This document shows, in pieces, positions 5,336 through 30,931 of a stretch of 42,639 nt of DNA. Origin of the DNA: Nitrospirota bacterium (lineage in GTDB: Bacteria; Nitrospirota; Thermodesulfovibrionia; Thermodesulfovibrionales; Magnetobacteriaceae); NCBI GenBank assembly GCA_015233895.1, contig JADFXG010000028.1, positions 1 to 42,639 of the forward strand, written 5' to 3'. The position numbers and the translations under genes are program-made. Position 1 is the first letter of the stretch, and the number at the start of each line of letters is the position of its first letter. The notes beneath the pieces are model-generated. The model saw nothing but the letters and a program-made list of their open reading frames with translations. It was not told where the DNA came from and made no database searches.

Positions 5336-6610
5336 TCACATTCCTTTTAATCGCAACAGACCGTTGAAAACACTTTCTATGTATCTGGTCTTTGGGTTTG
5401 TATAGTACTTTGGGTAGAGTAGATTATCACCCTCTTTGACAAGACCCTCCCTGCGCGCTATGTCAAATAGTTGTGTGTGCGGCTCTATGCGCATCGAGTT
5501 AAATTCAAAATGTACGCGGCTGCCCATCTGTGCTTTTGCTGTAAGGTAAAAACGCATCAATGCTAGAAAACCAGAAAAATCCTGTCCGGGAGGATTTTTA
5601 AAAAAGTTGTAACTTACCTCAAAACCATCCATGTGTCTTAGAAGATCAAAAGAGTCAAGGATGTCCCGTTTGGTTATGTTTTTACCAAGGTTTTTTAAAA
5701 CACTGTCAGAAAAGCCGTCCGGTGACAAAATTATATTTTTACAGCCTGCGTCAAGAGCTAAGTTTACAAAGTCCCGTGTAAGGTTTTTTTCACTAAACCA
5801 TGCCGACCACTGCACACCGAGCGCTCTTTTGGCTAATTCTCTGCAGATGTCCTCAGCGTGTTTTTGGGGTACATTAAACACCGAGTCAACAAACGTAAAA
5901 TTTTTTACTCCGTGGACATTAACAAGGTTCTCTATTTCATCAACAACCCTGACCGGATCTTTAAGGCGAAGCTTTTTGCCGTTTAGAAACCCATATATAC
6001 AGTATATACAGTTAAGGCCACACCCACGCTTTGTTTCCACTCCGATGCTGTCGCGCGTAGTCTTGTATTTATCAACAGACATATCAGCTCTGTCAGGAAT
6101 GCCTGTATAACTTACATCAACCTGGCCGCCCGGGCCGCTAAATACGACTTCACCGTTTTTTCTATAAAACACCGAGGGCACTTTCTCAGGAGTTGACAGA
6201 TTTTCCAAAAGCAGTGGAAATGTCCTCTCTCCTTCAAGAAACACACCCAAATCAATATCCCTTTGATCCTCCATTATTTCCCGCGCAAACATGGAAAACC
6301 CGGAGCCGCCAATGATTATTTTCCCCTGAGAGTGGGCTTTAATGGTTTTCACTGTCTCGGCAAGGTGTTCATAGTAAAAAACAACATTGCGCTTGTTTGT
6401 TGAATCAATATTTCTCAGAGAAATGCCGATAATGTCCGGCCTTACTGCTTTGATGTGTTCTCTAAGCGCTTTAAAAGGCTCTTTGTGGAGGTTAAGGTCA
6501 ATGACACTGGCCTCATGTCCGGTAATGGCTGATTTCAGGCAGCTTAGCCCCAAAGGAAAGACGATTTGCTCGGTACCTCCCAGATAAGACTGCACAAGGA
6601 GAATTTTTAT
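5336..6610 (-). CDS. B12-binding radical SAM protein (start codon probably ATA)
   Basis: This enzyme has an N-terminal cobalamin-binding-like Rossmann half and a radical SAM core. CGLNCIYC supplies the CxxxCxxC cluster motif (Cys197/201/204 in the long form). The first canonical start, GTG 6595, would begin at MQSYLGG and cut off the first beta-strand. Reading upstream in the same frame gives IKILLVQSYLGG, the normal family start, from ATA 6610-6608. That ATA has GAGGG placed 6 nt upstream and overlaps the upstream TAA as ATAA. The frame is closed by TGA 12 nt further up, so no ATG/GTG/TTG alternative exists. The long form is 424 aa. It lies between another B12 radical SAM gene and a glycosyltransferase. 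The reaction is unknown; methylation or a lipid/glycan modification is likely. Confidence 0.85.
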   Translation of the reverse strand: MKILLVQSYLGGTEQIVFPLGLSCLKSAITGHEASVIDLNLHKEPFKALREHIKAVRPDIIGISLRNIDSTNKRNVVFYYEHLAETVKTIKAHSQGKIIIGGSGFSMFAREIMEDQRDIDLGVFLEGERTFPLLLENLSTPEKVPSVFYRKNGEVVFSGPGGQVDVSYTGIPDRADMSVDKYKTTRDSIGVETKRGCGLNCIYCIYGFLNGKKLRLKDPVRVVDEIENLVNVHGVKNFTFVDSVFNVPQKHAEDICRELAKRALGVQWSAWFSEKNLTRDFVNLALDAGCKNIILSPDGFSDSVLKNLGKNITKRDILDSFDLLRHMDGFEVSYNFFKNPPGQDFSGFLALMRFYLTAKAQMGSRVHFEFNSMRIEPHTQLFDIARREGLVKEGDNLLYPKYYTNPKTRYIESVFNGLLRLKGM

Positions 6611-8106
6611 GGCTTTCCCTCAGCAATCTGTCTGACCAACTGTTTAGTCCTCTGTAGTATATGATAGACGTTTTTTACAATGGGCTTTGACCTGTCGCTC
6701 ATCATCATTTTAACGATTTTGGGTTTTATTAGTAATCTAAGCAACGAACCGGGCAGTTTTCCGTCTTTTGACAGTGATATTAGTAAGTTAAAGTAGTTAG
6801 GGTCCCTCATGGTATATGTTTTAGAGTAAATGTCACGTTTTTCGTCTGTTATATAGCCATCCTCTTTAGCTTTCTGGTAGAGTTTTGTTTCCGGGTAAAG
6901 GACCAGCGAGAATGGCTGCAAATGAAACGGTTTTGGAATTTTGGATACAAACTCAAGGCTTTCTATTTTATCCTCATCGGTTTCGTATGGGACGTCAAGG
7001 ATGAAATCGTAAGAGGGTGGACTCATTCTGTCTTTGTACTTATTGATGATTTTAATGGCTGCCATCATTCTTTCGTTAGACATCGCTTTTCTGTTAAAAA
7101 TCTCCTGGATTTTAGCGCTTCCGCTCTCTATTCCCATCTGTACGTACATAAGGCCTGCGTCAACGAGGAGTTCCATTTTCTCTTCTGTTATCGTAAGCGG
7201 ACTTGCCAGACAGGTAAATGGCAGCCCTATCTGTTCTTTATAGCTTTTACAAAACTCAGCGATATTCTTTAGCCCCCTGCCAAAGAACGAGTCATCAGAT
7301 ATCCATACATAGCCGATGTAGGGCATATTTTCTTTGACCCACAGGAGCTCGTTAATCACGTGTTCAGTTGAACGCCATCTCAAATAACCTTTACCGCTAT
7401 AGAGGTCTTTAATCGTGTCATTGATACAGTATGTGCACTTATGAGGACAGCCGCGCCCTGTCATAGTTTGATAGCCGATTTTTTTAAGATAGGTTGAAAC
7501 AGTACCCTTTTCAAGAAACTCTTTCATCAGCTCATTGGTCAGCGGTTGGATGTGGCCATCAAATAAAACATAATGGTCTGTAAAACTGTAGTCGGGGCGT
7601 GGATATTTATCAAGATTTTTATCAAGTATACCAACAGGATTTTTTATAACGGCTCCGTTTCTGAGGCACCAGAGGCCCGGAGTATCAGCCTGGTCAATTC
7701 CTGCATTTAGTTTATCGGCAAAGGTAACGGCAACGTCCTCGCCCTCACCAACACACACATAATCGGCAAACTCCAGCGATTCCTCAGGCCTTATTGTGGG
7801 GTGAACGCCTCCCCAGATAACAGGCACTTTAAGAGATTTTTTAAGATTACGGGTTATCTGTACCGCTCCGTCAAAAAAGTTTGTCATAAGAGTGACGCCT
7901 ATGAAATCAGAATCCTTACAGAGTTCCACAAGCTCATCCATCACAAACTGCCCGTACCTGTCCTTGCCATGGATGATGTTATCGCCGTAGGGGTCAGGCA
8001 GAAATACTATATGAGATTCATAACCTTTCTCTTTCAGACAAGCTGAAATTGTCCGCAAACCAAAAACGGTTATGTCCGGATACGGGGAAATAAGCGTTAT
8101 TTTCAT
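6607..8106 (-). CDS. B12-binding domain radical SAM protein
   Basis: The 499-aa protein has an N-terminal B12-binding-like domain (residues about 1-140, with KITLISPYPDITVFGLRTIS and a WGGVHPTIRPEE segment) followed by a radical SAM core. The core carries GRGCPHKCTYC (Cys220/224/227) and later YVQMGIESGSAKIQE and LDVPYETDED, typical of the Elp3/MiaB-NifB barrel. It starts at ATG 8106 and is the promoter-proximal gene of the minus operon. Its TAA overlaps the probable ATA start of the next gene. The substrate cannot be named; relatives methylate or rearrange lipids (for example hopanoids), bacteriochlorophylls or natural products. Neighbours favour an envelope lipid or glycan. Confidence 0.88.
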   Translation of the reverse strand: MKITLISPYPDITVFGLRTISACLKEKGYESHIVFLPDPYGDNIIHGKDRYGQFVMDELVELCKDSDFIGVTLMTNFFDGAVQITRNLKKSLKVPVIWGGVHPTIRPEESLEFADYVCVGEGEDVAVTFADKLNAGIDQADTPGLWCLRNGAVIKNPVGILDKNLDKYPRPDYSFTDHYVLFDGHIQPLTNELMKEFLEKGTVSTYLKKIGYQTMTGRGCPHKCTYCINDTIKDLYSGKGYLRWRSTEHVINELLWVKENMPYIGYVWISDDSFFGRGLKNIAEFCKSYKEQIGLPFTCLASPLTITEEKMELLVDAGLMYVQMGIESGSAKIQEIFNRKAMSNERMMAAIKIINKYKDRMSPPSYDFILDVPYETDEDKIESLEFVSKIPKPFHLQPFSLVLYPETKLYQKAKEDGYITDEKRDIYSKTYTMRDPNYFNLLISLSKDGKLPGSLLRLLIKPKIVKMMMSDRSKPIVKNVYHILQRTKQLVRQIAEGKP

Positions 8107-8242
8107 TTTATCTAAGCAACTCCTAGTTTTTTGCTTTTAACTCCAAACATTATGATAACATAATTAGTATAAAAGAAAGAAATTTATCCCAAATCCGTGC
8201 AAGTAATGGTGAGGCATTACGTTTTGATTACAGCACCAGCAC

Positions 8243-8290
8243 TGTGCAAAATTCTGCATATATGAAAATTATTGCACATTTATTGTGCAA
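8243..8290. promoter_or_regulatory. Cluster of TGTGCAA boxes, putative activator sites
   Basis: TGTGCAA occurs at 8243-8249 and 8284-8290, with the inverted form TTGCACA at 8272-8278. The last two make a perfect dyad, TTGCACA-N5-TGTGCAA. They lie 166-213 bp upstream of the inferred sigma-54 transcription start near 8456, the usual distance of enhancer-binding-protein sites. The dyad is followed by ATTTTTT, so a weak intrinsic terminator is an alternative reading. Confidence 0.45.
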
Positions 8291-8429
8291 ATTTTTTCAT
8301 ACTTGTCACAAAAAACAAATAGTCAGTCCTTAGTTTTCATAAAATACAGTTCCATAAAAACTATTGATATTGAAAACTTATGTTAAATCCCGGTAATTAC
8401 AGTTTCCCCAAAAAGTTTAACTTCTAAAT

Positions 8430-8445
8430 TGGTACACTAATTGCA
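8430..8445 (+). promoter_or_regulatory. Sigma-54 (-24/-12) promoter
   Basis: The sequence TGGTACACTAATTGCA matches the consensus TGGCACG-N4-TTGCA, with GG at 8431-8432, GC at 8443-8444 and exactly 10 bases between. The predicted transcription start is near 8455-8456, two or three bases before the 5' strand of the closing helix of the RNA candidate. No plus-strand protein gene follows. Confidence 0.65.
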
Positions 8446-8454
8446 ATATGCAAA

Positions 8455-8640
8455 GATTGAACACTATCCGTTTTGGAGACGGAGCGGTGTGGCATGTTAG
8501 GCACTTAAAATGGAGATGAAGTGTTGGGCGTTTAGCTTTTAGAAGAGGATTTGAGGCGATATAGAGAGACAGCGGTGTGGGCGCATCCTGGGGAGGAGGC
8601 GTCCACTACCCACTGTCTCTTATGTTTTATATAGTGTTCA
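8455..8640 (+). ncRNA. Candidate structured small RNA, about 185 nt
   Basis: A closing helix is visible: TGAACACTAT (8458-8467) is perfectly complementary to ATAGTGTTCA (8631-8640). Inside are a hairpin CCGTTT/AGACGG (8468-8482), a hairpin CACTT/AAGTG near 8502-8523, and a long hairpin AGAGACAG/CTGTCTCT (8565-8620). The long hairpin contains TGGGCGC pairing with GCGTCCA and TCCT-GGGG-AGGA at its tip. A direct repeat AGCGGTGTGG occurs at 8483-8492 and 8571-8580. I do not recognise it as 6S, SRP, RNase P, tmRNA or a common riboswitch. There is no classic U-tract after the closing helix, so the 3' end is uncertain; the U-rich stretch after 8620 could instead end the transcript. Confidence 0.5.
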
Positions 8641-8666
8641 CCATAAATTCACGTAAGTCCTTAATG

Positions 8667-9950
8667 CTAAAACTTAACCGTAACACCTAATTCTACTGAA
8701 TCCTCTGATAATGAGGACTCAAAAGATACGGCAGTACCCATCATATTAGTGCCGTTTTCTGTTATAGTATTTTTAAATGCGTGCATGTAACCGGCATTTA
8801 TTCCAACGTTGTCGTTTATTGTGTATTGAATGCCTCCGGTCAGATGATGTTCGACAATGCCTGGAAAACCGGTAATCCTGAATGACTCATAGTAATACGT
8901 AGGCATGGTTTTTCCCTGAATGGTTGTCATGCTGGTACTTGAACCGTTAAAATTACTGTGGTTATTAACAGGATTCTTACCATAGTTGTATCCTGCTCTC
9001 AGAGCTAATTGCTTAATTGGTTTATACTGTAAGCCAACACCCAGTACCAACTGGTTGCTCCAGTCAAAGTCCTTGAAACCATCTGCGTTTGCCCAGTTTA
9101 CCCATTTAAGATCGGCCTCAAGCAGCAGTTTGTCCTTAACCGGTGATACCGCTATACCAAAGCCAATCTCTTGCGGCTGCGAAAGCTTAAGATCATCTTT
9201 TACACCATCACCGTCAAGATCTGTTACACTTTTGTAAGTTATCGGTATCGGTGTAGCATAAGTTAACCCTAAAGATACACTATCCACAGGCTTATAAAGC
9301 AAGCCTATTCTTCCGCCTAAACCAAATTCATCTACTTTACCGCTGCCTAAGTCCAGTATCGAATAATTCACTCTGGCAGCTATGCCTAAAGAGAACTGAT
9401 CGTCAAACTTGTACCTTACGAAAGGTGCTATCTGCATAGTGCTAATGTTGGTATATGTACCCGACTGTAGTGGATACACTATGCTTCCGGCAGGACGATG
9501 ATACATGGCTGAGAAATCGTAATATCTTGAATTATCCACATTAGTGCCACCATAGTCCACGCCCAGTCCACTGACTCCATAAGCCGCAAGCCCAAACTTC
9601 AACTGCGTAGAAACAGGAATCGTAACCGCAAAAGAAGGTATAGGATAGACCTTACTTGCACTGTCTGCGTTATAAGAAGCGCTGCCAACCGTAACCTTAT
9701 TGGTTACAGTGGGTATAAATAGCGTTCCCATCAAATCAAGTGTAACCTTTCCGCAGTCCCCTACTGCCGCAGGGTTGCCAGAGATAGCGCCAACAGCATC
9801 CTGAGGAGCCGCAATGCCTGTTCCACCCATCTCTCTCGAACCGCTGCCTACGCCTATCAGATTATCACCGTTTGTGGCATAGGACAGTGTTGAAACACTA
9901 AAAACCATAAGTGCCAACATAATTAACATCCTAAAAATTTTTTTTCTCAT
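8667..9950 (-). CDS. OmpP1/FadL/TodX family outer-membrane transport porin
   Basis: The 427-aa protein has a signal peptide (MRKKIFRMLIMLALMVFSVS...SYA) and a FadL-type N-terminus. That N-terminus includes SREMGGTGIAAPQDAVGAIS and NPAAV, the conserved hatch region. It is followed by beta-rich sequence such as LSLGIAARVNYSI, GLTYATPIPITYKS, QLALRAGYNYGKNPV and VELGVTVKF with a C-terminal aromatic. FadL porins carry hydrophobic molecules across the outer membrane. The frame is open further up to 10004, but ATG 9950 is chosen because GGGAGG lies directly upstream and the signal peptide starts there. It lies 85 bp downstream of the double cNMP-binding gene on the same strand, possibly co-transcribed. 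Confidence 0.9.
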   Translation of the reverse strand: MRKKIFRMLIMLALMVFSVSTLSYATNGDNLIGVGSGSREMGGTGIAAPQDAVGAISGNPAAVGDCGKVTLDLMGTLFIPTVTNKVTVGSASYNADSASKVYPIPSFAVTIPVSTQLKFGLAAYGVSGLGVDYGGTNVDNSRYYDFSAMYHRPAGSIVYPLQSGTYTNISTMQIAPFVRYKFDDQFSLGIAARVNYSILDLGSGKVDEFGLGGRIGLLYKPVDSVSLGLTYATPIPITYKSVTDLDGDGVKDDLKLSQPQEIGFGIAVSPVKDKLLLEADLKWVNWANADGFKDFDWSNQLVLGVGLQYKPIKQLALRAGYNYGKNPVNNHSNFNGSSTSMTTIQGKTMPTYYYESFRITGFPGIVEHHLTGGIQYTINDNVGINAGYMHAFKNTITENGTNMMGTAVSFESSLSEDSVELGVTVKF

Positions 9951-10035
9951 AGGAACCTCCCATTTTCTTCTCCTTTCCATAAAGGAGTGCTGAAAAAAAC
10001 CCATAGCTTAGCCCTTATACTTCTTAAGTTCTTAA

Positions 10036-20857: not shown

Positions 20858-23800
20858 TTATACTTTTCTCTGAAGCTGTCCATCCATAATATCAATAAGG
20901 GTGCTCACGCAACTGCCATAGCTTTCATAATCAGCCATACAAGTGCCTGTCATCTCTGCCGGTATCAAACACTTTTCTATTAATCCGGTGTGTCCCTCCG
21001 TGGGTTTTGCCCCAAGGACTTTCCAGTGCTCCTCTGTTTGAAAGCTTTTTTGCTTTAACTCATCAGCTATGTGAGCAAGCAGCGCCTTAAAAAATGGATG
21101 CGAGCTGTCATGCAGCCCCAGTGATTCGGCATAGTCGCTGCAACGTTTTGTAGATTCCCCAACGTACTTGTATATGATTCTGGATATTAATTCAACAATC
21201 AGGTACTCTGAGTTATTGAGGTCGCGCAGCAGGGCTTCTGAGTCTTCAGACTTAGAAAACCGCTCTTTGATTTCACCCCTGACCTGCCCAAGGGAGGCAT
21301 TTACTATCAGGCCGGCTAACTTAAAATATGACACTGTACGGAGATTATCCCGTATTAGCCGCACTCGGTGCTTTTCTTGCTTAAGGTGTTCACGCCGTTC
21401 GGTCAGTCTTATTCCAAAGATGTACAGTATATGTTCTTTGGTGCGTTCGTTTTGAGGCAAATCAAGGGACTGAAGCAATGTGTTAAAACTGGCATCATTT
21501 TTACACCTTTCCAAAGCCTTCATGACACTTTCGTAATTAGCCATAAAGTCGCCCTCTTCTATCTGTCTCTTTAGTTTATCACTGCGCTGACGCACGGTAA
21601 TCATTTTTTTTACAGCATTATTGCGTGCATCCCGTATAACCTTTATTAACTTGTACGCCTTATCAGTTTCCATCTTAGCGTGTTGGGAGCTTTTAGAAAG
21701 CCCCTCAAGGATGATACTTTCGATATTTTCCGTCTCTTCAACGTTGTATATTGCCGGGTTGCAGTGGTGGAGGATTTCGGCCACGGTCTTCCATGCAAAA
21801 GCTGTATTGGAAGCGTACTCGGTGTTTAAAAAATCCCGCATGTAAAACTGAAAATACAGCGCCCCTATATCACCAAGATTTTCCGGAGTGAGCACGTACT
21901 TCTTTATGGTTTCACTTATGGCCTCAACTATAGGCTCCTCATACATTCTCGGATGGCTTCTCAGGTGCTCCCTTTTGTCTCTGTGAAATATAGGGCGCCC
22001 CTTAGTCCGGCATTCGCCGCCGGTTTTCTGAATTACAAACCTTTCATCTCCCTCCCCGATTATTTCAAACCGTGCATTAGCCTCACGCAAAAGGCCAATT
22101 GGCCCAAATATTCGTTCAAACCGTTTTAAATCCGTTACGGCAGTATATACTCCTATTGGTGAGATGTAAACGGCTTGTTTTAACGCTCCTTCATGTTCCT
22201 TTATCTCAATTATGGTGGCACGCGGACAGAGCCCGGGCAGGAGTAAAATCTTCTTTTTCCGTGCAAATCCAAAACACCTTACAAAGTACCTGAGGTAATT
22301 GCGCGTAGTGCCAACTATGTCCTTGCTGCCGTCTGTCCCATAAGAGTAGAGTATGCTGTCAGGAGTTGGTTCAAAAGTAATCCCTTGCCGTGACATTTCA
22401 GTAAGCATATCGGAAATGCCGATTAAATCATCCAGTTTCTGTAGTATTTCGCTCTCTGTGCTGGCATCCCCTGATATTTGCACACATGCCTCTGTCAGGT
22501 AGTAGATTTTTTCCCACTGGCTGTTCAGGCTTTCCTCGGCTATTTTCATAATCGGTTTGCCGTACATTGACCACACCTGCGGGTCGGCTATAAAGCTAAA
22601 CGCTGGAACTACACTTTCTGTTCCGCTAAAGTTAAAGTAATCTATTACTTCAAAGTGTATGGAAAGCTCATTCGGAACTCCGTTAACTATGGCCTCACGG
22701 ATTTTTTCTACGATGCCTCTGTCTATTAATTTTTTCATAATAGCGCAGGCAAATATCTCTGAGGCAGGGGATATTGCAACCTTATTTGCGTGCCTGTGCC
22801 AGTACCTCAGGCGCACTCTGATATCTTTCATAAAATGGCAAAATTCCATAGCCCGTTGTCTTTCAGAGAGTGACTTTTTTGGCCCCTTATCACTAAGAAG
22901 CACACTGTATTTTTCAAAAAGAAACAACACACGGCGCTTTTGCATATCCTCAAGGAAATCATCAAAGCTATACTCATCAGCCCCAAGTATCTTTTCCGAA
23001 ACTACGGCCAGGGATTTCAAAAATCTCTTAAACTCCTCCTCATCTATGTAACCTGGGTCGTTTAGCCTTTCAACGGCAAGAGATTCAATCCCTGACTGAA
23101 GGGAGTCCGAAAGAGCAAGAAAATTTTCCAAAGCAAGTTCCTGTAGAGTTTCCACGATGTAGTTGCCATCAAGTGTTTTTTGTCCAAGCCGCTCGAAGTG
23201 CTTTTTGGTAACGATAGTACTATCCATGCGGTTTTCATGCGGGAGGGTGTCCATAGCTGAGTCCCTCCTCTGGCTCATTGCATGAGCATGGAACGAGGGT
23301 GTTGTAGCTCCGCCGAGTTCTGATGAGTTAATAAAAACATGAAATCCGTCAAGAAGTTTCCCCAGTCTGTTTCTATACACGTTTAAAACGGATACGAGTA
23401 CGGAGTTGCACTCAATCCATGATTTATCAGACATATCGGATATCGCCTTTGTAACGCTTTCAGCCAGCATAAACATGAGGTCTGCGACATATCTGTCAGT
23501 TTTATCGACGGCTATGACGGCAGGGGTAGTGCCGTGGGCGTTAGAGAGCTGAGCTCTTACCCTTTGAAGATTATTGAAAAGCTCCTCTCTTTGGTCAATA
23601 GTTAAAGGCTCACTGACAAGAGAGTACTTAACAAGATAATTAACCATAATGTGAAATGTGCCGACAAGGTCAGCATCAACCGTCTTTCCCTCAGCCTGAA
23701 GTTTGAATGCGCCCTTTAAGTCAGCAATCCGCTGTTCCAGGATTGTGGTGGTTTCAGGATAAATCCGGAAGACATCGGCGGTTTTTTTCATATAACTTTC

Positions 23801-23962
23801 CAGAAACGCCCACATTACGGAGATGCGGGGAATCAAGGGATGGGGAATCAGTTCGGTGAAATTCCGCTGCTTTTCAGCAAACATCGGAGCCGTCCGTACC
23901 ACTTTGACAGGATACGCTGCCCCCCCGTATTTTTTAATCGTTTCGCTGCTTTCTATTGCCAT
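20858..23962 (-). CDS. Large 1034-aa protein of unknown function
   Basis: I do not recognise this protein. It is soluble-looking (no signal peptide, no transmembrane segment), mainly helical and charged. A central block (about 555-670: YLRYFVRCFGFARKKKILLL, ALKQAVYISPIGVYTAVTDL, FEIIGEGDERFVIQKTGGE) looks like a beta-rich globular domain. The C-terminal third (about 740-900) has long heptad-like stretches such as DKAYKLIKVIRDARNNAVKK and RREHLKQEKHRVRLIRDNL. It starts 3 bp after the stop of the DJ-1 family gene, so they are co-transcribed, and it ends 29 bp from the convergent tatC stop. Base composition matches its neighbours. A large scaffold or regulatory protein is possible; nothing visible decides it. 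Confidence 0.75.
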   Translation of the reverse strand: MAIESSETIKKYGGAAYPVKVVRTAPMFAEKQRNFTELIPHPLIPRISVMWAFLESYMKKTADVFRIYPETTTILEQRIADLKGAFKLQAEGKTVDADLVGTFHIMVNYLVKYSLVSEPLTIDQREELFNNLQRVRAQLSNAHGTTPAVIAVDKTDRYVADLMFMLAESVTKAISDMSDKSWIECNSVLVSVLNVYRNRLGKLLDGFHVFINSSELGGATTPSFHAHAMSQRRDSAMDTLPHENRMDSTIVTKKHFERLGQKTLDGNYIVETLQELALENFLALSDSLQSGIESLAVERLNDPGYIDEEEFKRFLKSLAVVSEKILGADEYSFDDFLEDMQKRRVLFLFEKYSVLLSDKGPKKSLSERQRAMEFCHFMKDIRVRLRYWHRHANKVAISPASEIFACAIMKKLIDRGIVEKIREAIVNGVPNELSIHFEVIDYFNFSGTESVVPAFSFIADPQVWSMYGKPIMKIAEESLNSQWEKIYYLTEACVQISGDASTESEILQKLDDLIGISDMLTEMSRQGITFEPTPDSILYSYGTDGSKDIVGTTRNYLRYFVRCFGFARKKKILLLPGLCPRATIIEIKEHEGALKQAVYISPIGVYTAVTDLKRFERIFGPIGLLREANARFEIIGEGDERFVIQKTGGECRTKGRPIFHRDKREHLRSHPRMYEEPIVEAISETIKKYVLTPENLGDIGALYFQFYMRDFLNTEYASNTAFAWKTVAEILHHCNPAIYNVEETENIESIILEGLSKSSQHAKMETDKAYKLIKVIRDARNNAVKKMITVRQRSDKLKRQIEEGDFMANYESVMKALERCKNDASFNTLLQSLDLPQNERTKEHILYIFGIRLTERREHLKQEKHRVRLIRDNLRTVSYFKLAGLIVNASLGQVRGEIKERFSKSEDSEALLRDLNNSEYLIVELISRIIYKYVGESTKRCSDYAESLGLHDSSHPFFKALLAHIADELKQKSFQTEEHWKVLGAKPTEGHTGLIEKCLIPAEMTGTCMADYESYGSCVSTLIDIMDGQLQRKV

Positions 23963-27266: not shown

Positions 27267-29186
27267 TCACCTGACAGGTGAAAGAAAGTGTTTGCCGTCG
27301 GTTTTCTCATAATTGACCTTAAAAAGAATATCACTCCATTGTTTTGTGGAATTATCAAAAGCCTCACCATACGTGTGCCAAAAGATGTCGTAAGGGGTGG
27401 CAATGTAAACATATGTATATCTGCCGCTTGACAACTGCTCAAACCACTCCCTGGTTGTTATATTACAAGTCCAGATGTCTCCGTCAAAGAACGGTTTCCC
27501 CAGTGACCAGCATCCCATGTTAAAACGCCGTGGAAGCAGTTCGTAGGAGACAACCCTGTGTTCAAATCCGGTTGTTGCTAAAAACACAATAAAAACGCTG
27601 CTATTAGCCGGAGTTTTTGATTTAACAAAATTTATCTGCGGACTAATCTTGTTTCTGAACCATTTTGTGTCGTAATCGGGATGGGCAAATGCGGTATTTA
27701 TATTAAGATTCTTAAGAATCGGGTAATGGTAAAAAAACACTGCCATAAAAAACACATAGAAAATTAATAATTTATATTGCCTTAAAGCGGAAAGAACTCC
27801 GCCAGTGTCCTGTCTGCATTTAAAAATGCTCTCAGGTTGTACAAAACCATAGAAGAGCAGTGAAAACGATAACAGATATGTAGCAGAGTATCTTTCAAAC
27901 GAGGCAAGGAGTTTTCCCTCATAAGGGCCCAGATTAAACAGATATACCTTGAGAATTCCAGCAATATAAATTATAAAAAAAAGTGTCATAGTGGAAAACA
28001 CCCACAAAATGGAGGCTCTTCTGCCAGACCTTAATATGAACAATATGCCAAATAAGGCAAAAAACACTGCAAACCAATGTTTTACGTTAAATGTGCCGAT
28101 TTCACGTCCCTTGTCTTTTATGGCGCTAAAAAAATTACTTACTATGGTGCGCTGGTCGTCGTTTTTTGGAGACCTGACGGCATCCATTAGAGACTGCCCT
28201 GATGACTGAATTAGATTTGGAATTTGGCCTCCGTTTTCGTGTTTTATATGTGCTTTCCAACTTTCAGAGGTTATTAACGGTGATAAAACAAAAATTAAAA
28301 GAGTAATAACAACAGGCAAAGTCCTGTTTAATTTAAGAGATGATTTATCAAAAAAATTCTTTAAAATAAACGAGGCTGAAATTATGACAGTTACAGCGAT
28401 AGCAAAGAAAAGTCCCGATGCTTTAAAAAGGGTTAGAGCACACAAAACAGGTACATACAAAAGCAAAGACGTATCTTTTTTGTTGCCGCCTCTGAAATAA
28501 GCCGTCAGCGCCATGCCAAAATAAACACCAAGCACCTGATCAACCATAATGGAAACAGTGGTTTGAAAAAAGACAATAATCAGGGTATAAAAAAAGGCTG
28601 TAGTTAGTATTATAAAAGGCGTATGTCTCTTAAATGAAAACTCTCGGAAAAAAACCACAACAGGGGTAAACAACAGGACAAACTGGGCAAAATATAGGGT
28701 GTGTTCGTTAAAGCCGGAAATAACAGTAAAGTAGTATTGAAACAGATTTGCGCCAGGACTGTAGTACCAGAAAGTGACGGCCCCTTTTGGTACACTGAGT
28801 GCTCCGCTTTGATACATTTCCTTTGTCATCAGTCCCCAGTGGGAAAACTCATCCCAGAAGGCGAGTGTATAGCCGCGGGTTTTAAATAAAAATAACCCCG
28901 ATATGACCCAAAATGTGGCAATTCCAGGCGTTAGAAAATATTCTAAAAGCAAATCTGATCTTAATCGTATTGTAATTACAATCAGAGCCAACACAAGGAA
29001 AAGCATCCCAGTGCCAAATACAATGAAACTGCCGGACTTTAACGCTCCAAAAAGCGAAAACGCATATAGGAGACACACCACAAGCGATATGGCTGAAAAC
29101 AGGGAAAGCTCCATATCCTCCCTCATGAGATACTTAACAGCCGCAGCATAACCCAGTATAGATAACACAACAATTATTTCATTCAT
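27267..29186 (-). CDS. Polytopic membrane protein, possibly GT-C glycosyltransferase
   Basis: The 639-aa protein has at least 11 hydrophobic spans. Between the early helices is a loop, TRGYTLAFWDEFSHWGLMTK, with an acidic WDE motif like the catalytic Asp-containing first loop of GT-C transferases. A SPGANLFQYYF segment follows, and a soluble C-terminal part of about 120 residues begins after the last helix (HPDYDTKWFRNKI). The GT-C idea is inference; it could also be an O-antigen ligase-like or unrelated membrane protein. It ends 20 bp from the TetR start on the same strand and is divergent from the response-regulator genes. Confidence 0.75.
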   Translation of the reverse strand: MNEIIVVLSILGYAAAVKYLMREDMELSLFSAISLVVCLLYAFSLFGALKSGSFIVFGTGMLFLVLALIVITIRLRSDLLLEYFLTPGIATFWVISGLFLFKTRGYTLAFWDEFSHWGLMTKEMYQSGALSVPKGAVTFWYYSPGANLFQYYFTVISGFNEHTLYFAQFVLLFTPVVVFFREFSFKRHTPFIILTTAFFYTLIIVFFQTTVSIMVDQVLGVYFGMALTAYFRGGNKKDTSLLLYVPVLCALTLFKASGLFFAIAVTVIISASFILKNFFDKSSLKLNRTLPVVITLLIFVLSPLITSESWKAHIKHENGGQIPNLIQSSGQSLMDAVRSPKNDDQRTIVSNFFSAIKDKGREIGTFNVKHWFAVFFALFGILFILRSGRRASILWVFSTMTLFFIIYIAGILKVYLFNLGPYEGKLLASFERYSATYLLSFSLLFYGFVQPESIFKCRQDTGGVLSALRQYKLLIFYVFFMAVFFYHYPILKNLNINTAFAHPDYDTKWFRNKISPQINFVKSKTPANSSVFIVFLATTGFEHRVVSYELLPRRFNMGCWSLGKPFFDGDIWTCNITTREWFEQLSSGRYTYVYIATPYDIFWHTYGEAFDNSTKQWSDILFKVNYEKTDGKHFLSPVR

Positions 29187-29752: not shown

Positions 29753-30931
29753 ATGGATCATAAAAGTTTTCTTAAAAAATCAGTTACTATTCCTCAACTA
29801 TGTGAACACATAAAAGAATTAATGGAAAAATATGACATTTTCCTGGGTAAAAACGCTATTCTTGTAATCATAACCTGCCTTGATGACCAGTGCTCAACTG
29901 TAATAGAGTTTATAAAGCGGGAAATGAGAAAATTTCATCCTGCAAAGTATGGTGATACAGATGATTCTGACGACTTAATTCATCTTGAAAAGTTTTATGG
30001 TATGAGACTATTTGGCGGGATTTTCATCCCGAAGGTAAAAACATATGAGAGCCTTTTGCCTGCGTCACACCATATTCCTGAAAGAAATGACGGTAAGTTA
30101 TTAATATTAAACTTCTCCCATATCGGCTATGACAGCAACACAGGCAGCTTTGGAGTCATGGTGCGCTACGGACATGAGAAATCATCGCCAGCTTGTGGTG
30201 CTATAAAGTTCTGTTACGATAAGATATTGGCAGAAGATGACCCTCCAGCCGATGCCGACTTAAAATCCCTTTCAAAACATATCAAGAAAGTTGTGAAAAA
30301 GTATAAAATTAAAAAAGAGGAAAATGGATACGATATTTTAGAAGTTACCCTGAGGGCTTTTGACGACCAGATTCCCTGGGTAACGGAGCAGCTGTCGCAT
30401 CTGGCGGTAACTGACCAAATAAGTATATTATATATGGGCGGCGTAGAGGTTGATTACAGTAAAAACTGCGATGAGCTTAGCAGTGACAGGATGGTAATAT
30501 TAAAAAGATTGTACATAGACAAAAGCGGGAAGGTAGAGACAATGGATAAAATGCTGACTGTACTGATAGTGGATGATGAGCCGATAGTGGGAAAGAGGCT
30601 TAAACCGGCACTTGAGAAAATGGGCTGCGAGGTGGAGATTTTTGAAAATCCCAGGCTTGCGCTTAGCCGCATTATGGAAAAGGAATTTGATGTGGTTGTA
30701 ACCGACATCAGAATGGATGAGGTGGACGGCCTTGAGGTTTTAGAGACAGTCAGAACCAAGTCAGAGCGGACAAAGGTTGTGTTGATAACCGGCTACGCAA
30801 TGATGGAACTGGCTCGTCAGGCTATGGAAAAAGGAGCATTTGATTTCATAGCAAAACCATTCAAACCGGATGACCTGCGTAACGTAATCATGAAGGCAGC
30901 CGAGTCGCTGGGATTTACGGATTTAAAATAA
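29753..30931 (+). CDS. LCIB-like carbonic-anhydrase domain fused to a response-regulator receiver
   Basis: This 392-aa protein has two parts. Residues about 1-255 resemble the LCIB/theta-type carbonic anhydrase family: ILVIITCLDDQ (Cys42, Asp44), LLILNFSHIGYDSNTG (His123), VMVRYGHEKSSPACGAI (Arg138, Cys148). The Cys/His/Cys set and the GxxxRxGxExSxxCGA-type ending are the zinc and substrate positions known for that family. Residues 264-392 are a full receiver: VLIVDDEP (Asp274/275), VVTDIRMDEVDG (phospho-Asp318), LITGYA (Thr346), FIAKPF (Lys368). Met264 is preceded by GGGAAGG, so a separate receiver could also be made. It lies next to a single receiver gene. A role in CO2/bicarbonate sensing or a repurposed domain is inference. 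Confidence 0.7.
   Translation: MDHKSFLKKSVTIPQLCEHIKELMEKYDIFLGKNAILVIITCLDDQCSTVIEFIKREMRKFHPAKYGDTDDSDDLIHLEKFYGMRLFGGIFIPKVKTYESLLPASHHIPERNDGKLLILNFSHIGYDSNTGSFGVMVRYGHEKSSPACGAIKFCYDKILAEDDPPADADLKSLSKHIKKVVKKYKIKKEENGYDILEVTLRAFDDQIPWVTEQLSHLAVTDQISILYMGGVEVDYSKNCDELSSDRMVILKRLYIDKSGKVETMDKMLTVLIVDDEPIVGKRLKPALEKMGCEVEIFENPRLALSRIMEKEFDVVVTDIRMDEVDGLEVLETVRTKSERTKVVLITGYAMMELARQAMEKGAFDFIAKPFKPDDLRNVIMKAAESLGFTDLK

Follow-up and report, generated by a model that had tools for sequence, protein, structure and literature searches.

A sigma-54-type promoter and a predicted structured non-coding RNA outside described families in a Nitrospirota genome

The window analysed here, a 42,639-nt stretch of DNA from a Nitrospirota bacterium, contains an intergenic region (8107-8666) flanked by the genes of a radical SAM/B12 protein (6607-8106, minus strand) and of an OMPP1/FadL porin (8667-10004, minus strand). 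Because both flanking genes lie on the minus strand, the promoter-like element found at 8429-8445 on the + strand drives no + strand gene, in agreement with the initial annotation, which had noted the opposite orientation of the downstream genes and assigned the promoter to an RNA only. The region was compared with copies in two further species of one genus, G001 (locus L005) and G002 (locus L118). Gene order around the RNA in G001 is that of the window, and the G002 copy sits in an unrelated neighbourhood of arsR-type regulator and comF-type genes. No + strand gene was found downstream of the RNA in the window, G001 or G002, the next genes in each being on the minus strand. The same intergenic region of G001 also carries palindromic repeats (TTCCCGCTCGTAGGCGGGAATGACA ... 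GTCATTCCTGCGAAGGCAGGAATCC, L005:4618-4740), absent from the window, which have the look of a REP-like dispersed element.

The promoter-like element (TTGGTACACTAATTGCA; TTGGTAC-N5-TTGCA, with GG at 8431-8432 and GC at 8443-8444) is a near-consensus -24/-12 sequence of the sigma-54 type. The initial annotation had described it as near-perfect, and counterparts in both relatives can now be added: that of G001 (TTGGCACGTTACTTGCA) is closer to consensus than the window's, with 82% identity over 8410-8448, and that of G002 reads TGGCACAGTAATTGC. In all three species the GG-N10-GC element lies directly 5' of the RNA, as in the class of sigma-54 dependent sRNAs. Exact matches to TTGGYACN5TTGCA number only five in the 3.7-Mb genome, the present element among them, and allowing up to one mismatch raises the count to 61, the reversed control giving 30. 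A further exact element of the sigma-54 type, TTGGCACGTAATTTGCA, is found elsewhere in this genome (C57:3876-3892, L115, minus strand); behind it come a long, GC-rich pair of inverted repeats (GGGGGCAGACCC...GGGTCGGCCCCC) and no obvious gene, and it possibly marks the start of a second sigma-54-driven RNA.

Sigma-54 promoters require an enhancer-binding activator. Upstream of the promoter, and absent from the account given in the initial annotation, are three tandem 18-bp dyads with the consensus TGTGCA-N6-TGCACA, which together span 8243-8301. The first putative upstream activating site (TGTGCAAAATTCTGCATA, 8243-8260, + strand) agrees with the dyad at 11 of 12 positions and has counterparts at the same offset in G001 (L005:4804) and G002 (L118:1483). 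The second (TATGAAAATTATTGCACA, 8261-8278) scores 10/12, with 12/12 in G001 (L005:4822) and 11/12 in G002 (L118:1501), while the third (TGTGCAAATTTTTTCATA, 8284-8301) scores 10/12 in the window as in G001 (L005:4845) and is degenerate in G002 (L118:1524; 7/12 by eye). Their offsets of 0, +18 and +41 are identical in the three species, which align without gaps over 59 bp, and the distance from the end of the array to the -24 GG is 126-135 bp. Allowing up to one mismatch, the pattern TGTGCAAAANNNTGCAYA has three matches in the whole of the G001 genome, all of them at the RNA locus, and the sole match in G002 is likewise located. Counted over a whole genome, dyad matches do not exceed those of the reversed pattern used as control; what is unusual is how they cluster and how they are spaced, and the argument is built on that. 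The array is enhancer-like, its layout being that expected for the sites of an enhancer-binding activator, and upstream activator sites are also a property of the sigma-54 dependent sRNA class. The NtrC box is GCAC-N7-GTGC, and a resembling sequence is present at 8272-8290 (TTGCACATTTATTGTGCAA); NtrC was dropped as the main reading, given that conservation follows the TGTGCA-N6-TGCACA unit instead. This dyad (TGTGCAAAAATCTGCACA / TGTGCAAAAATATGCACA) recurs at C35:13122-13139 of the window's own genome (L033/L114) and at C151:1703-1720 of G003 (L117), in both species in the gap that separates the gene of a RumA-type methyltransferase from that of a large hybrid histidine kinase. No sigma-54 promoter is evident at these two places, a point against the sRNA reading of the present locus; the same regulator may have a second site there.

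Towards the 3' end of the region lies a terminator-type hairpin (8565-8620, + strand), whose lower stem is found only in the window and G001 and whose upper stem (8577-8584 paired with 8599-8606) is common to the three species. It encloses a tip (AUCCUGGGGAGGAG, 8585-8598, + strand) that may be written AUCC(U)GGGGAGGAG, 13 nt that are constant across the three species bar one U lost in G002. A T-rich tail follows (TATGTTTTATAT, 8621-8632, + strand; TTTTCTTTTTTATTTT in G002), and a conserved, probably single-stranded GAAGRGGA stretch precedes (8542-8549, + strand). The initial annotation had pointed to a long GC-rich hairpin with a GGGG tip, and this is recovered at 8565-8620; that the hairpin is probably a terminator had not been remarked upon. 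A simple terminator scan does not flag the window site, the tail of which is interrupted by A and G, and a terminator-type site is also present in G002. A terminator of its own and the lack of a conserved ORF are likewise traits of the sigma-54 dependent sRNA class, although the window terminator is weak by the simple scan.

The 8-bp upper stem is rebuilt in G002 through compensatory changes; four of 11 hairpin pairs, the inner three included, are changed on both sides, and 100% of cells are paired, as against 43-67% and at most one both-side-changed pair in slid controls. Covariation analysis of homologous regions, proposed in the initial annotation, thus finds conservation in two relatives together with compensatory stem changes, but a score as high as the observed one turns up in 17 of 500 shuffles and, with only three sequences from one genus, the statistics are weak and to be read as suggestive. 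The + strand hairpin is more stable than its complement by 3.3-9.4 kcal/mol across the window, G001 and G002, and by 3.8-9.4 kcal/mol in the comparison with G001. Each change seen in G001 preserves + strand pairing (two via G-U), re-establishes a pair or lies in a loop. Both the retained pairing and the greater stability of the + strand suggest that the hairpin is transcribed as + strand RNA.

Conservation outside these elements is limited. Identity to G001 reaches 91% in the upper hairpin, 83% over 8535-8575, 82% in the promoter and 76% in the dyads, and falls to 36% in the 5' half of the RNA and 50% in the spacer between dyads and promoter. What the relatives retain is the dyad array, the promoter, GAAGRGGA, the 8-bp stem with its AUCC(U)GGGGAGGAG tip and the T-rich tail; in G002 the order after the dyads is TGGCACAGTAATTGC, GAAGAGGA, CAGGGTGT-AUCCGGGGAGGAG-ACACCCTG and TTTTCTTTTTTATTTT. 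The promoter and dyads thus travel together with the hairpin between loci. The G002 copy was first located via its upstream site and then confirmed by a covariance model, R1, which scored it at 35.8 bits against 8.7 for the next best match of that locus. As R1 was built from the window and G001 only, the relation of the G002 copy is independent of any model that had seen it. In a search over the order with R1 the copy was missed under strict filters and found with filters off.

Beyond these three species, searches of the fourth congener (G003) and of the family's other genera yielded no RNA copy, and where G002 and other genera have orthologues of the porin and radical-SAM genes, none was found beside them. 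Class-wide matches outside the genus were weak and without a sigma-54 promoter, as were R2 matches in other families, which were discarded. A DNA similarity search of 100 relatives returned G001 and G071 only, the latter a chance match inside a metalloprotease gene. Among the R2 matches, three loci of family f10 in the same order (L126, L130 and L131) bear a GC-rich hairpin with a similar tip (UUCCGGGGGAGGAA) and AGCTTTAAA-like flanking repeats, apparently just after ftsZ, and are taken as unrelated since no sigma-54 promoter was seen. Pattern scans of a genome contig collection gave nothing or two GC-rich chance matches, and a match in a viral contig collection lay within unrelated sequence. 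At the gathering threshold, Rfam 15 yielded no match in the window, L005 or L118, a test that spans GlmY/GlmZ, Qrr, NrsZ, CrcZ, CsrB, RsmY, 6S and others where modelled; with a lax threshold, only chance-level snoRNA matches appeared. The earlier impression that the RNA resembles no familiar housekeeping RNA is thereby upheld.

Conservation in two further species, compensatory hairpin changes and an unrelated context in one of them support a structured non-coding RNA behind a sigma-54-type promoter and outside described families. With a probability of roughly 0.8, we read the locus as encoding a sigma-54- and activator-dependent, intrinsically terminated, trans-acting sRNA; the gene is probably real and functional, and would represent a new family of a known kind. 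The predicted sRNA of about 175 nt (8456-8630, + strand) would begin some 12 nt past the -12 GC and terminate within the T-rich tail, and predicted lengths range from 140 to 175 nt. In the mechanism we propose, an enhancer-binding activator would occupy the three tandem dyads of TGT-N12-ACA type at 8243-8301, loop over roughly 130 bp and open the -24/-12 promoter at 8429-8445 with the sigma-54 (RpoN) holoenzyme, whereupon RNA polymerase would produce an RNA of 140-175 nt ending at the intrinsic terminator hairpin and T-rich tail. This RNA may work in trans, as its neighbourhood differs between species, with unrelated genes, and no gene lies downstream of it. The unpaired, purine-rich GAAGRGGA just 5' of the terminator would most likely be the antisense seed, and the invariant AUCC(U)GGGGAGGAG tip could offer a second pairing site or a protein-binding site. 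On this last element a more specific suggestion, possible though on balance doubtful, is that the terminator loop is itself functional in a genus-level sRNA family, serving an RNA-binding protein (e.g. CsrA), or C-rich mRNA loops, as a G-rich decoy or a mimic of the Shine-Dalgarno sequence, and is released by the enhancer-binding activator.

An RNA with these exposed motifs may instead act without pairing to mRNA, by titrating a GGA-binding regulator such as CsrA in the manner of CsrB or RsmY, or by mimicking a Shine-Dalgarno sequence through GAAGRGGA and GGGGAGGAG. We consider this unlikely. All four genomes tested encode CsrA, and the three RNAs keep three GGA triplets, two of them in the tip and one in GAAGRGGA, despite the changes in the stem. 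Known sponges of the CsrA/RsmA kind, however, carry many GGA or ANGGA motifs above expectation, and the present RNAs fall far below them: the 4-6 GGA copies are not enriched relative to shuffles (6, 4 and 5 copies; p 0.23, 0.44 and 0.11) and copies of the stronger ANGGA motif number 2, 0 and 1. A CsrB-like sponge was dropped as first choice.

That function resides in a whole multi-hairpin fold of about 185 nt closed by a 10-bp stem, as the initial annotation proposed, is improbable. The stretch 8458-8467 (TGAACACTAT) is indeed exactly complementary to 8631-8640 over 10 bp, and a complement of at least 10 bp arises in 0.035% of shuffles of the two ends, which were picked after the match was seen. 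This stem is nonetheless missing from both relatives, where the longest such complement is 4 bp (G001) and 6 bp (G002), and its 3' strand lies at or past the probable termination point in the T-rich tail at 8621-8632. The fold of 8455-8660 is stable (-72.6 kcal/mol, z -3.87, with none of 200 shuffles as good), but it owes this to the 3' hairpin (z -5.4); folded by itself, the 5' half does not stand out, with z -1.3 to -1.5 for the window and +0.4 and +1.6 for the relatives, and its hairpins, too, are absent from G001 and G002. Similarly, the 10-base direct repeat noted earlier does occur twice in the window (AGCGGTGTGG, 8483-8492 and 8571-8580) but in neither relative. The closing stem, the folded 5' half and the repeat are not supported as biological features by these comparisons. 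A retron-like a1/a2 stem was rejected, there being no reverse transcriptase nearby and no conservation of the closing stem, as was 6S RNA (a long rod with a central open bubble and an end-to-end stem), for which there is no Rfam match and the end stem is not conserved.

Only 47 nt separate the stop codon of the porin gene (8667, minus strand) from the start of the hairpin, which might be no more than the terminator of that convergent gene, or of both strands, with a promoter-like element arising by chance. We regard this as quite improbable: the G-U pairs and stability favour the + strand in three species, the T-rich tail belongs to that strand too, and promoter and dyads accompany the hairpin. 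Moreover, the G002 element lies away from the porin gene, the downstream region of which bears a different hairpin in that species. It is very improbable that the transcript is the mRNA of a small protein; short frames do cross the hairpin (e.g. 27 aa in the window, 28 aa in G001), but their starts, frames and residues differ among the three species, stem changes track pairing rather than codons, and no small ORF common to the three RNAs is conserved. A riboswitch or attenuator leader of a downstream + strand gene, which a structured RNA behind a regulated promoter might suggest, is hardly credible given that in the window, G001 and G002 alike the genes that follow have minus-strand orientation.

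Sigma-54-activated regulatory RNAs are known in gamma-proteobacteria, and the proposed trans-acting sRNA may be compared with several of them. The sRNA GlmY of Enterobacteriaceae is activated through QseF/GlrR sites with sigma-54, and three putative QseF sites, of consensus TGTCN10GACA, are reported to lie upstream of P. mirabilis glmY (PMC8745638). The present locus is alike in its sigma-54 promoter and three sites of TGT-N12-ACA layout, and differs in the bases of the sites (TGTGCA-N6-TGCACA), in the absence of a GlmY/GlmZ Rfam match and in its neighbours, radical SAM and porin genes with no qseEGF adjacent. NrsZ of Pseudomonas is likewise intergenic, at about 226 nt, and depends on an NtrC-type activator with RpoN (PMC8395346). 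The window dyad at 8272-8290 recalls an NtrC box, but this form is absent in G001 and G002, the locus is not beside ntrC, and no Rfam match was obtained. CrcZ of Pseudomonas, a CbrB- and sigma-54-dependent Hfq decoy (PMC8395346), is an orphan regulatory RNA under sigma-54 and a response regulator, which resembles the arrangement proposed here; it is 407 nt long with A-rich Hfq motifs, whereas the RNA here is short and G-rich in its conserved parts. The Qrr sRNAs of Vibrio, controlled by LuxO and sigma-54, have upstream sites about 100 bp from their promoters (PMC11407668). They share with the predicted RNA their short length, intrinsic termination and promoter arrangement, and differ from it in sequence and Rfam assignment, in its single copy and in the upstream site.

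The locus would thus form a complete unit of activator array, promoter, RNA and terminator with invariant tip, in which the dyads offer a handle on the activator and the tip a handle on the partner. A text search of the literature on sRNAs in magnetotactic-type Nitrospirota, a lineage we infer for this genome, returned nothing relevant, and no sigma-54-switched RNA described there before. Elsewhere in the window, two large minus-strand ORFs of 1034 and 639 aa (20858-23962 and 27267-29186) have no Pfam match, and a + strand gene at 29753-30931 encodes a protein in which a response-regulator receiver domain is fused to a carbonic anhydrase domain of LCIB type, an unusual pairing.
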